Source: Candidatus Neomarinimicrobiota bacterium (GTDB lineage: Bacteria > Fidelibacterota > Marinisomatia > Marinisomatales > S15-B10). From it: a DNA stretch of 64,000 nt. Positions 12,191 through 47,752 of this stretch are shown one piece after another. The translations under genes and the position numbers were made by a program. Where the stretch lies: the NCBI GenBank assembly GCA_036476315.1, contig JAZGBI010000022.1:1-64000 (forward strand), read 5' to 3'. Within the stretch, counting starts at the first letter, position 1; every line of letters begins with the position of its first letter. Under the pieces are notes generated by a model, which saw nothing but the letters and a program-made list of their open reading frames with translations, searched no databases and had not been told where the DNA came from.

Positions 12191-13453
12191 ATGAGATCCT
12201 GGGATTTTCCACTTGAACAGTTGAGCCCCGACGCTATGGATCACGAAAGCGGAAACACCGTTCACTCTGTCAACGGCGTCCCCCCATCGGAGATAATGAT
12301 TCCATACCCCAGTATCCGTTCTCTTCTGGAGTCACAGGTTCGACGCTATGGTGACAGATCATTCGTGATTTCCTCCTCAGAGGGAAGCAGAACAAAACTC
12401 TCGTACAACGGATTCTCCCGGCGGGTCTCCCACCTGGCGGCCTTGCTGCAGTCCGAAGGGCTTGCCCATGGTGACCGAATCGCAATCCCTGCGGGGAACG
12501 GCATTCAAACCCTCGTGGAATACTTCGCAATCTGGATGATGGGGTGTGTCGGAGTTCCCGTCAATGCGACGCGAGAGGAACGAAACCGTTCCTCCGTTCG
12601 CAGGTCTCGGGCTTCCACGGTGCTTTTTGAGATGAAGGAGGGTTTGCGCACCGTACATGGCTTCCGTACGGGCAGGAAATCCAAGCTCCGGGACGACGTG
12701 TTAATCGTTCTCCGAACTGATAACAGGGGAAACTTGAGGGGGATTGTTCTCTCTCATTACAATATTCTGGTCAATGCCATGGCCATCGCCGGTTCTCTCG
12801 AATTGACCGATGACCAGACGGTCCTCTGCACAGCTCCTCTCAGCGGCGTTACAGGTATTGTGGGATGCATTATGTCAGCACTCTATGCAGGATGCCGAAT
12901 TGTGTTAGGCACTGAAGGAAAGCCGGACTTTCTTCTGAAACTCATAGACAGGGAGGGGGTACACCTGGCCTTTGCAGACGCGCAACTGCTGACCGGTTTT
13001 CTCGGGTCCTCCGGATTTCGCCGGAAAAACTCACAGTCCACATTCAAGTGCTTCGTTTCCTCTCACCGCCATCTTGCACCGGATATCACCCGGAAAGTTG
13101 AGCGGAAGTTCAACGTTCGGGTCATTCCCGGATTTGAAATTGCCGAGGCAACATGCTTTTCCAGCTTCCCACCCCTCTCTTTCTCCCAGCCCGAATCCAC
13201 GGAGGGTCTCCCCGTGGGAACAGCCCTTCATGCATGCGAAATGACCGTCCTGGACGGGCAAGGCGAGGAATGTTCTGAGGGGCAGACGGGATGGGTTGCC
13301 GTCCGGGGGCATCACGTCATGAAAGGCTACCTGGACGATGAGAAAGCTACAGCGCACGCTTTCAGGTTTGGATGGCTTGACAGTGGAGAGAGGGGATTCT
13401 ACGAGAAGAGTCCTGACGGCGTCAAGTATTTCACCGTCACTGGAAGAAAGTGA
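12191..13453 (+). CDS. Degenerate, C-terminally truncated adenylate-forming (ANL superfamily) protein
   Basis: The 420-aa frame follows the N-terminal domain of acyl-CoA synthetases/AMP ligases: an N-terminal SYNGFSRRVSHLAALL, GDRIAIPAGNG, LSHYNIL, a substrate-pocket region, and late motifs GWVAVRGHHVMKGY and FGWLDSGERG. Two key parts are wrong. The ATP-binding P-loop TSGTTGxPKG is replaced by RTDNRGNLRG, losing the Thr/Ser/Gly cluster and the lysine. The protein also ends at TGRK, exactly where the hinge (GRxK) should lead into the roughly 110-residue C-terminal domain with the catalytic lysine. A period-7 repeat array starts 4 bp after the stop. Catalysis as a ligase is unlikely. It is either a decaying gene or a non-catalytic homologue. 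Confidence 0.75.
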   Translation: MRSWDFPLEQLSPDAMDHESGNTVHSVNGVPPSEIMIPYPSIRSLLESQVRRYGDRSFVISSSEGSRTKLSYNGFSRRVSHLAALLQSEGLAHGDRIAIPAGNGIQTLVEYFAIWMMGCVGVPVNATREERNRSSVRRSRASTVLFEMKEGLRTVHGFRTGRKSKLRDDVLIVLRTDNRGNLRGIVLSHYNILVNAMAIAGSLELTDDQTVLCTAPLSGVTGIVGCIMSALYAGCRIVLGTEGKPDFLLKLIDREGVHLAFADAQLLTGFLGSSGFRRKNSQSTFKCFVSSHRHLAPDITRKVERKFNVRVIPGFEIAEATCFSSFPPLSFSQPESTEGLPVGTALHACEMTVLDGQGEECSEGQTGWVAVRGHHVMKGYLDDEKATAHAFRFGWLDSGERGFYEKSPDGVKYFTVTGRK

Positions 13454-13456
13454 TAA

Positions 13457-13686
13457 ACGTTAGACGTTGTACGTTAGACGTTCGACGTTATGAGTTAGAC
13501 GTTAGGCGTTGGACGCATCACGGATTAAGTATCAAGTATCAAGGATGAAGTATCAAGTAACAAGGATCCCCGTACGCTGACGCTACGGGACAGGCAAGGA
13601 ACAAGTATCAAGTAACAAGGATCAAGTGACAAGGATCAAGTAACCAGTCACCAGTTGGCAGTTGGCAGTTTCACGCATTACGCATC
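13457..13686 (+). repeat. Intergenic period-7 arrays (ACGTTAG, then AAGTATC) split by a hairpin
   Basis: Sixteen heptamers run in one uninterrupted phase from 13457 to 13568: first ACGTTAG-type units, then AAGTATC/AAGGATC-type units. A hairpin follows (13567-13594), then about 13 more heptamers to 13686 that grade from AAGTATC to CAGTTGG. The array fills the gap between two convergent genes (335 bp, 13454-13788). The AAGTATC units are the reverse complement of the ACTTGAT units at 28026-28219. No gene is present. Confidence 0.8.
13567..13594 (-). repeat. 28-bp hairpin, inverted exact copy of 28157-28184
   Basis: The stem is CCCGTA-N9-TACGGG read on either strand. All 28 bases match the reverse complement of 28157-28184. 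In both places the hairpin interrupts an ATCAAGT/ACTTGAT-type array, so array and hairpin seem to travel as one element. Confidence 0.85.
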
Positions 13687-13788
13687 ATTTTCTCCATTTC
13701 TCCAACATCAATAATTAATTGTCAATGGTCCATAGTCAATCGTCAGTGTTCTCCATTTCTCCACTACTCCGTTCGTGTTCGGCGTTAG

Positions 13789-14910
13789 TCAAGTTTGAAG
13801 ATAGCCGATTCGGTGTTCAATCGATGGATGACTGTGGAAGAGAAACTCAACAACGGGATGAGGATCCCTGTCGGCCAGATTCAATTCGGCAAGTCTTTCC
13901 AGAGCTTCGACCAGGGGGGCCGCGTTACCGCCGAGCATCTCCTTAGAAAAACTGTCCGCTGCCCGTTCATACAAACGGCTGACGGAGTTTTGTACGGGAT
14001 GCGTTACAAATCCATAGACTCCGAGGAGAAGTATGAGGAGAGGAAGTGGAGCTAGGTTGCCCATCGATTCATATCCGAGCCTTGCTGACCATCCCGAATA
14101 AACCATGGAAACAACGTACAGGCCAAGAAAAGTGAAGAGTGTCCCGAGGACAATCATTTTCCAGAGATGCTTTCCCTTGAAGTGACCCAGCTCGTGAGCC
14201 AACACGGCGTCAATTTCATTGGGAGAAAAATTGTCCACAAGGTTATCCGCGAGCAGAATCCTTTTTGACTTGCCAATACCTGTAAATGCGGCGTTTGCCT
14301 TCCTCGTTGTCTTGCTCAAGTCAAATTGGAAAACGCCCTGCACTTTCATCCCAACGGATTCACACCTGTTCCTCACCAGCGCTTCTAATTCCTCATTTTC
14401 GACGGGAACAAATTTGTAGAAGAGAGGGAAGATTAGAACGGGTGCCAGTCTTCCCAGAAGCACGGTGAAGAAAAAGGCGAAAATCCCCACCGGGATCCAC
14501 CAGTGTACTACGGTGGTGAGGAAATAATAGAATACGATGAGCACGGGTGCGCCAATGACAACCGCAACGAACACCTCTTTTGATTTCTCCCACCAATAGG
14601 ACTTCAAGGTTAGACTCGAGAGTTCATACTTGTGCTCAAGGATGTAGTCGATGTACAAGGAAAGAGGAATCATCAGTATCAACTCAACGATTCCAATGAC
14701 CGCGGCGAGAACGAGGAGCGCCAGGTAAGGGTTAGATGTAATAGAGTATGCCCACCTTTCCACCGTCGCGGTAAATCCCCCGAGCACGATTATCAGAAGA
14801 TACAGCCAGCCAAGGAAAGTCTCACCAAGACCGGCCACGAGCTTGATCGTATTGTACCGCTTCGACCGCTTCAAGATTCTTCCATCGGAGATGTCATTTA
14901 CGACTGTCAT
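13789..14910 (-). CDS. M48 family (Ste24-like) membrane zinc metallopeptidase
   Basis: The 373-aa integral membrane protein has several hydrophobic segments in its N-terminal half, the zinc site HELGHFKGKHL near residue 240, two further membrane segments, and the third ligand in RAADSFSKEM. The final FLFHSHPSIEHR is the conserved C-terminal Ste24 motif. The layout matches CAAX-protease-like M48A peptidases, which in bacteria act in membrane-protein quality control. I chose ATG 14910, which gives a 4-bp ATGA overlap with the upstream Nudix gene. Its 3' end faces the repeat array at 13457-13686. Confidence 0.9.
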   Translation of the reverse strand: MTVVNDISDGRILKRSKRYNTIKLVAGLGETFLGWLYLLIIVLGGFTATVERWAYSITSNPYLALLVLAAVIGIVELILMIPLSLYIDYILEHKYELSSLTLKSYWWEKSKEVFVAVVIGAPVLIVFYYFLTTVVHWWIPVGIFAFFFTVLLGRLAPVLIFPLFYKFVPVENEELEALVRNRCESVGMKVQGVFQFDLSKTTRKANAAFTGIGKSKRILLADNLVDNFSPNEIDAVLAHELGHFKGKHLWKMIVLGTLFTFLGLYVVSMVYSGWSARLGYESMGNLAPLPLLILLLGVYGFVTHPVQNSVSRLYERAADSFSKEMLGGNAAPLVEALERLAELNLADRDPHPVVEFLFHSHPSIEHRIGYLQT

Positions 14911-16540: not shown

Positions 16541-16797
16541 CTATTCATCAACCACATCCCGACTTGATCGGGACAGGGTGAACACAGAGCATATCAAATT
16601 GATATTAAGAACCTTACAATAGATCATTTCAAGACTATTTTGAGAATATTTCAGACACGTCATCGATCTCTAAACCTATGCCAATCATACTTCTCGATGA
16701 CCTTCCCGCCTGCTCCCTCCTCTTCGGGAGCAGGCGGGCAGGTGTGGTTTTGAGGCGAATCTCATCTCAAGATCCTTTGGAAGATCCTGTGGATAAT
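16541..16797. repeat. Composite intergenic repeat, copy A
   Basis: This stretch upstream of tgt and downstream of radA is homologous to 47461-47752 along its length. It starts at a CTATTCATCA block with the palindrome TCCCGACTTGATCGGGA, passes through an AT-rich middle with shared GACACGTCATC, and ends in the 34-bp CTCATCTC...GGAT unit at 16761-16794. Copy A carries a perfect 13-bp-arm hairpin (16705-16738) that copy B lacks. No gene lies in 16507-16802. Confidence 0.8.
16705..16738. repeat. GC-rich hairpin with 13-bp perfect arms
   Basis: CCCGCCTGCTCCC and GGGAGCAGGCGGG pair perfectly around an 8-nt loop. The same CCCGCCTGCTCCC/GGGAGCAGGCGGG words occur in the hairpins at 28220-28278 and 51684-51742, marking one family. 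Confidence 0.85.
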
Positions 16798-25086: not shown

Positions 25087-25093
25087 AGAACAG

Positions 25094-25240
25094 ACTGGTG
25101 ATTGGTTAACTGGATACTGGTGACAGGATACTGGTGACTGGATACTGGTTAGTGGTTGAACGGTTAATTGGTGCACTGGTGGACTGGTTGCCTGATTACC
25201 TGGTTTCCTGATTACCTGGTTAACTGGTTACTGCCTTCTG
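25094..25240 (+). repeat. Degenerate 7-8-bp array (TACTGGT/GACTGGA type)
   Basis: Units TACTGGT, GACTGGA, GACAGGA and TAGTGGT repeat every 7 bp, with an 8-bp step after the second unit. After 25157 the period is mostly 8 bp. The array fills the 162-bp gap between two convergent genes. Its units resemble the ACTGGAT units at 28026-28116. Confidence 0.7.
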
Positions 25241-28025: not shown

Positions 28026-28219
28026 ACTGGTGACTGGATACTTGATACTGGATGCTAGATACTGGATGCTAGATACTGGATGCTAGATACTGGATACTAG
28101 ATACTGGATACTGGATCCTTGATACTTGACCCTTGATACTTGACCCTTGATACTTGCCTGTCCCGTAGCGTCAGCGTACGGGGATACTTGACCCTTGATA
28201 CTTGATCCTTGGATCTTGC
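28026..28219 (+). repeat. Period-7 array (ACTGGAT/GCTAGAT then ACTTGAT/CCTTGAC)
   Basis: Nineteen heptamers keep one phase from 28026 to 28158: alternating ACTGGAT and GCTAGAT, then ACTTGAT, CCTTGAT and ACTTGAC. A 28-bp hairpin (28157-28184) follows, then about five more units. The array lies between argF and hslU, which are co-oriented. The ACTTGAT part is the reverse complement of the ATCAAGT part of the 13457-13686 array. Confidence 0.85.
28157..28184 (+). repeat. 28-bp hairpin, exact inverted copy of 13567-13594
   Basis: CCCGTA and TACGGG arms enclose a 9-nt loop. The hairpin is embedded in the heptamer array, as is its partner copy. Confidence 0.85.
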
Positions 28220-28278
28220 CTGCCCCGCCCGCCTGCTCCCGAAGGGCGGGCAGGTGGGAGCGAAACGACCGTACGGGG
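28220..28278 (+). repeat. REP-like GC-rich hairpin, 59 bp
   Basis: By eye it is 56/59 identical to the reverse complement of 51684-51742. It contains CCCGCCTGCTCCC and an inverted GGGCGGG partner, and ends GTACGGGG. It lies 5 bp beyond the hslU stop codon and could form a strong RNA hairpin at the end of that operon, though no T-tract follows. Confidence 0.85.
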
Positions 28279-36306: not shown

Positions 36307-39473
<3,167 letters not shown>

Positions 39474-47460: not shown

Positions 47461-47752
47461 CTATTCATTAGCCACATCCCGACTTGATCGGGAAAGGGTG
47501 AACACAGAGTATATCAATTTGATACTAAAAACCTTATGATAATTCATTTGAAATCAATTCTTGCGACTATTTTAGACACGTCATCTTTCTCTAACCTTAT
47601 GTTAATTACGCTTCTCTGTGACCTCTGCCTGTCCCATTGGATGCGAAGCCATTCTATCGGGGTGGCTTCGTGGTGAATCTCATCTCAAGATCCTTTGGAA
47701 GATCCTGTGGATCTCATCTCAAGATCCTTTGGAAGATCCTGTGGATAATCCG
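47461..47752. repeat. Composite intergenic repeat, copy B
   Basis: It aligns with copy A (16541-16797): CTATTCATTA, the TCCCGACTTGATCGGGA palindrome, GTGAACACAGAGTATAT, an AT-rich middle, GACACGTCATC and a terminal 34-bp unit. In place of the GC hairpin of copy A it has a GAAGCCA...TGGCTTC inverted repeat. The terminal 34-bp unit is duplicated here. No gene overlaps it. Confidence 0.8.
47679..47746 (+). repeat. Perfect tandem duplication of a 34-bp unit
   Basis: Two identical 34-bp units (47679-47712 and 47713-47746) begin CTCATCTCAAGATCCTTTGG. A single copy is at 16761-16794, and a 19-bp piece at 54611-54629. Confidence 0.9.

Follow-up and report, generated by a model that had tools for sequence, protein, structure and literature searches.

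The heptamer array at 13457-13686 of the window, by which we mean the whole 64,000-nucleotide stretch of DNA analysed here, is probably (at a probability of roughly 0.72) one copy of a dispersed mosaic intergenic repeat. Copies of such a repeat would consist of arrays of seven-base words (a few have 8 bp) that follow one another in a favoured order on one strand and carry hairpins at set points; they would arise by duplication or recombination, change by slippage and be tolerated as neutral or selfish DNA. The repeat recurs genome-wide with a common order and strand, and homology between copies runs through block boundaries at loci whose flanks are unrelated.

Composition of the repeat between two convergent genes

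The repeat occupies the gap between two convergent genes, one for an AMP-binding enzyme, which ends at 13453, and the other, on the opposite strand, for an M48 (CAAX-type) peptidase, which ends at 13789. Within 13457-13686 the self-match at a lag of 7 bp was 0.63 against 0.25 ± 0.03 in dinucleotide shuffles (z 12.5), and none of 2000 such shuffles exceeded 0.36, so that the 7-bp period described by a first-pass annotation of this DNA is real. Self-match declines from this value to 0.60 at lag 14, 0.52 at lag 21 and 0.45 at lag 28, as expected if adjacent units copy one another. TRF recovered the same arrays, with better scores for the 14- and 21-bp periods. The annotation had also counted the units correctly, with 16 at 13455-13566, then the hairpin, and 13 at 13595-13685. 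The extent that it gave, 13457-13686, holds for the heptamer array but not for the feature as a whole, which reaches about 13763 through a block with the 8-bp unit TTTCTCCA and another of the TCAATAR type.

On the plus strand, the composite begins with block I (13455-13524), about eight units of the ACGTTAG type which end in a ACGCATCACG transition; an ACGTTAG block is also present at locus L079 (2287-2351). The six AAGTATC / CAAGGAT units of block C (13525-13567), a block that recurs throughout the genome, are followed by the 27-bp hairpin element CCCCGTACGCTGACGCTACGGGACAGG (13568-13594), beyond which block C continues with seven CAAGNNN units in a phase shifted by -1 (13595-13643). Blocks D (CCAGTCA) and then E (GGCAGTT) occupy 13644-13671, and block F, CACGCATTACGCAT, lies at 13672-13686. 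Block G, built of the 8-bp unit named above (13687-13706), and block H, with TCAATAR / GTCAATG heptamers (13707-13748), lead to a second G block, TTCTCCATTTCTCCA (13749-13763), which forms the right end of the composite; the copy at L096 is without one 8-bp unit of G and one 7-bp unit of H. The units had been thought to drift freely in sequence, whereas they form blocks (ACGTTAG, AAGTATC/CAAGGAT, CCAGTCA, GGCAGTT, ACGCATT) that recur genome-wide. It also appears doubtful that an ageing array should lose its period ahead of its unit, as the annotation had assumed, because substitutions alone would erode units and leave the period intact.

The hairpin has a stem of CCCGTA/TACGGG plus GC/GC with one bulged base, and its recognition as an element is based on its copies, its spacing and its predicted fold. 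A 21-bp core, CCCGTACGCTGACGCTACGGG, was found in the genome in five exact copies and three variants, all eight of which lie inside or beside arrays. In each of the five exact copies the insertion point within the CAAGNAT unit is identical and the sequence then reads ACAGG-CAAG; the CAGG-CAAG end is also borne by other hairpins with different interiors. The step from CAAG to CAAG across the hairpin measures 34 bp, or 5 × 7 - 1, in all five exact copies, and the 27-bp insert shifts the heptamer phase by one base, so that the array is not phase-locked through the hairpin as had been claimed.

Recurrence, order and strand of the blocks

Periodicity was surveyed in 599 kb of the genome, comprising the window and stretches picked without regard to repeats. 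Twenty-six period-7 arrays were detected, about 43 per Mb, which extrapolates to roughly 110 arrays genome-wide. The harmonics 14 and 21 gave 19 and 13 arrays, period 8 gave 8, period 6 gave 4, and the remaining periods up to 22 gave 0-3 each. Only 113 of 2854 array bases fall within called genes, 96% being intergenic. When one mismatch was allowed, the word AAGTATCAAGTATCAAG had 32 matches in the genome. The first-pass annotation had named 7-bp periodicity elsewhere in the genome as a test of its idea, and the idea survived this survey; its description of the array as locus-specific was wrong, as shown by the 26 arrays and by the same words at other loci. A one-off chance or an assembly artefact was ruled out because similar arrays lie on many contigs and in the assemblies of other species. 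Several contigs begin within heptamer arrays (the window at 1-60, L085 at 1-74 and L101 at 1-111), which suggests that these repeats break assembly, and the assembly of such genomes from short reads is likely to be interrupted there.

The arrays are assembled from about ten recurring seven-base words. Read side by side, they reveal a common sequence of CAAGAACC, AAGATAA, CAAGTAT/CAAGGAT, CCAGTCA, GGCAGTT, ACGAATT, TTTCTCCA and TCAATAR. Order and strand were scored at 32 multi-word loci, and the resulting figures, 153 of 157 blocks on the majority strand (about 106 when shuffled) and 160 of 193 word pairs (83%) in agreement with one order, are descriptive, because the fixed word list had been compiled by eye on these very loci, so that the order score may be too high, and because about one third of the sequence in the sample had been included for carrying these words or the hairpin. 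When blocks were shuffled within loci and the same word list was used, the proportion of ordered pairs was 0.64 ± 0.03, with a maximum of 73% in 500 trials. About one word pair in six violates the preferred order. Block C stood ahead of D in 16 of 17 loci, ahead of G in 8 of 8 and ahead of H in 9 of 9.

Direct alignment of 13440-13790 with other loci is independent of the word list. The segment matched L096 with 80% identity over 176 bp, through several block changes and with gaps of 8 and 7 bp, L095 with 87% over 129 bp and L099 with 69% over 209 bp; many other loci also align, and no alignment was found for the reversed query. For the genes flanking three of the copies no relatives were found in the sampled sequence, which points to dispersal of the repeat and not to duplication of large segments. 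Drift within one array could not have led many loci to share both their words and the order of these words. The edges of the element have no obvious shared termini, and the arrays blur its boundaries.

Elsewhere in the window, a copy on the minus strand at 28027-28218 has blocks in the arrangement A-C-hairpin-C-D, the hairpin being identical, and immediately beyond it, at about 28212-28278, there is a second hairpin, larger and rich in G+C. Between convergent genes at 25091-25231, also on the minus strand, CCAGTATC/CCAGTCAC heptamers are followed by 8-bp units. Heptamer arrays of the GGATGAG type (1-60, at the contig start) and of the CCATCTC type (558-640) lie on the plus strand. The window also contains repeats of another family, AAGATCCTTTGGAAGATCCTGTGG, at 47673-47746 and 16769-16793. 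At L133 (12397-12720), one composite has a G-H-F segment that is duplicated in tandem over 149 bp together with its hairpins, and a hairpin-rich module, GTTGAGCGAAG...AAATCCCGAC, follows or interrupts composites at L096 (about 13800-13930), L107, L106 and L098. Carriage by phage was considered and rejected: the hairpin had no match in viral contigs, and the one match to CAAGTAWC (L194) had the appearance of a short array standing alone. Plasmid matches all came from Lactiplantibacillus, and one region was inspected. On a Lactiplantibacillus plantarum plasmid (L207, NC_021519.1, about 37169-37292), CAAGTAA heptamers form a long array in the vicinity of a ParA gene, perhaps as a heptad-based partition site; as a relative of the repeat this array was judged to be an analogue or a coincidence of a simple word.

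Changes between related species

CAAGTAT was absent in nine other searched genomes of the family and present in three genomes of other families (G011, G024 and G012). The looser pattern CMAGTNN matched in 14 of 171 genomes of the class, and TCAATAR in 13 of 245 genomes of the phylum. G011 and G024 represent two species that are about 95% identical at the compared loci, and the combination of such close sister species with repeat blocks and hairpin modules makes unit growth, gain or loss of hairpins and replacement directly readable.

Length change by whole units was observed in these related genomes only. Two arrays in the pair L238/L243 each differ by 7 bp between G011 and G024, the first aligning with gaps of 6 and 1, and one array in the pair L237/L244 differs by 7 bp; between paralogous copies, 7 is the commonest gap size above 2 bp. 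These three one-unit differences and the gap sizes support the earlier suggestion of local, slippage-driven growth in unit steps. In the pair L139/L177, likewise from G011 and G024, only one of the two species carries a 34-bp hairpin, in an array that otherwise matches and with at most 1 bp of ambiguity at the junction, so that a filled and an empty site can be compared. At five further sites (L258/L265, L264/L263, L256/L267, L260/L268 and L262/L270) the intergenic repeat content was replaced or rearranged beyond alignment between the two species; several of these are too diverged for base-by-base reading, and the five support only replacement of content. In another pair of genomes, G213 and G214, the array is kept beside the same gene with altered units. 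A constraint on length or phase, which had been put forward along with slippage, is not supported, given a hairpin that shifts the phase by one base, array lengths that vary between relatives and the replacement of whole arrays. The word order in G011 and G024 is unlike that of the source genome, with D before A at L238, and the order therefore looks inherited within a lineage and not universal.

For the dispersed mosaic repeat these observations suggest a course in which existing composites would duplicate or recombine into other intergenic sites, or would spread by a mobile process, after which replication slippage or unequal recombination would add or remove whole units. The repeats would then be tolerated as neutral or selfish spacer DNA and would not act as a sequence-specific regulatory element. 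A search of the genome for a Y1 transposase as an agent of dispersal found none.

Alternative explanations and known repeat systems

A dedicated copying process, distinct from plain slippage, might write or transplant ordered heptamer blocks and hairpins between genes in this lineage, and the likeness of words across the class, possibly beyond it, might then reflect a shared enzyme or a replication bias; we regard this as rather unlikely. It is also unlikely that every intergenic site grew its own array by local slippage, with 7 bp favoured and the units drifting afterwards. Orthologous arrays in G011 and G024 do differ by unit steps, 7 bp is the commonest gap above 2 bp between copies, and among the long simple repeats of most genomes heptamers are described as the commonest, with polymerase contact length as the proposed reason (Mrazek 2007, cited in both PMC4679880 and PMC4692102). 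As the sole cause, however, independent slippage is already contradicted: it does not explain why 32 loci carry the same words with a common order and strand, or why loci that are otherwise unrelated have hairpins and block boundaries that are nearly identical.

If the arrays were rows of adjacent binding sites for a protein that covers 7 bp, they would resemble the WATCACW heptads bound by Omega/ParB, where Omega dimers bind one heptad each in unspaced arrays (PMC9499535). The conserved core letters AGT, around which other letters vary, and the plasmid array near a ParA gene agree with such a role, which is nevertheless quite improbable given that a single genome has ten or more different words and an estimated 110 or so arrays, and that words are replaced wholesale between the sister species G011 and G024. 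The units also differ from the Omega operator, and the Omega family protein (PF07764) was not found, though no control genome matched either. An action as RNA by way of the hairpin, whether as terminator, 3' UTR stabiliser or small RNA, is very improbable. The locus lies between convergent genes and its hairpin has a predicted folding energy of -11.5 to -12.7 kcal/mol, but this corresponds to a z of only -1.5 to -1.7, and the predicted fold of the element as a whole is not better than that of shuffled sequence (z 0.2). No terminator-like site was found, and no Rfam match in the window. Together with a mixed orientation relative to tandem genes (8 same, 13 opposite), this leaves an RNA function unsupported, and no function of the repeat is supported. 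Least credible is a reading of the hairpins as REP elements that a RAYT transposase mobilises, with the arrays as bystanders. No Y1_Tnp (RAYT) gene matched in the genome (assembly 95.8% complete), while controls matched in 5 genomes, and there are only 8 hairpin copies, all at arrays. The short repeated palindromes, their polymorphic presence in relatives and the occurrence of GTAG and CGTC in the minus-strand sequence do recall REP elements; yet both motifs sit within the stem-loop and GTAG straddles the stem, whereas an unpaired tag at the end of the palindrome is required (PMC3733652) and none was present.

The dispersed mosaic repeat can be set beside several known systems. Heptamer repeats are already known to be common in bacteria. 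The feature in the window consists of tandem 7-bp units beyond chance expectation, and arrays of this kind vary by whole units between G011 and G024. As far as 7-nt long simple sequence repeats and cyanobacterial STRRs are described in PMC4679880 and PMC4692102, it resembles them in its 7-bp units, intergenic position, genome-wide occurrence and whole-unit length variation, but here degenerate units are joined as words in ordered, strand-coherent composites with hairpin modules. The TAACTGA repeats of Beggiatoaceae and cyanobacteria (PMC4679880) are likewise dispersed intergenic direct repeats of a heptamer, and block D, when read on the reverse strand as TAACTGG/TGACTGG, differs from that word by one or two bases. 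These repeats, however, use one exact word with rare variants in 2-6 copies, often upstream of starts, whereas the composites described here have many words in order and no preference of orientation. GGGAATC heptamers of Xanthomonas and Nostoc (PMC4692102) form heterogeneous arrays between the same gene pairs in relatives and vary in length, as here, but they form G-quadruplexes, and the words of the present repeat are without G-tracts.

Geobacter metallireducens has families of elements that hold four or five tandem heptanucleotides, as well as palindromic families (PMC2700814). Each of these elements has a fixed copy number, some also lie inside genes, and ordered multi-word composites are not described for them; nor was a description of an ordered mosaic of heptamer blocks found in the open-licence papers searched. 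Mosaic intergenic repeats are known in Neisseria, and with BIME/NIME (PMC3898611) the present repeat shares dispersed intergenic composites of small recurring modules, arrays of hundreds of bases and palindromic parts. NIME modules are 20-bp inverted repeats and RS units of 30-160 bp, whereas the modules here are heptamer arrays, the comparison made here being one of architecture.
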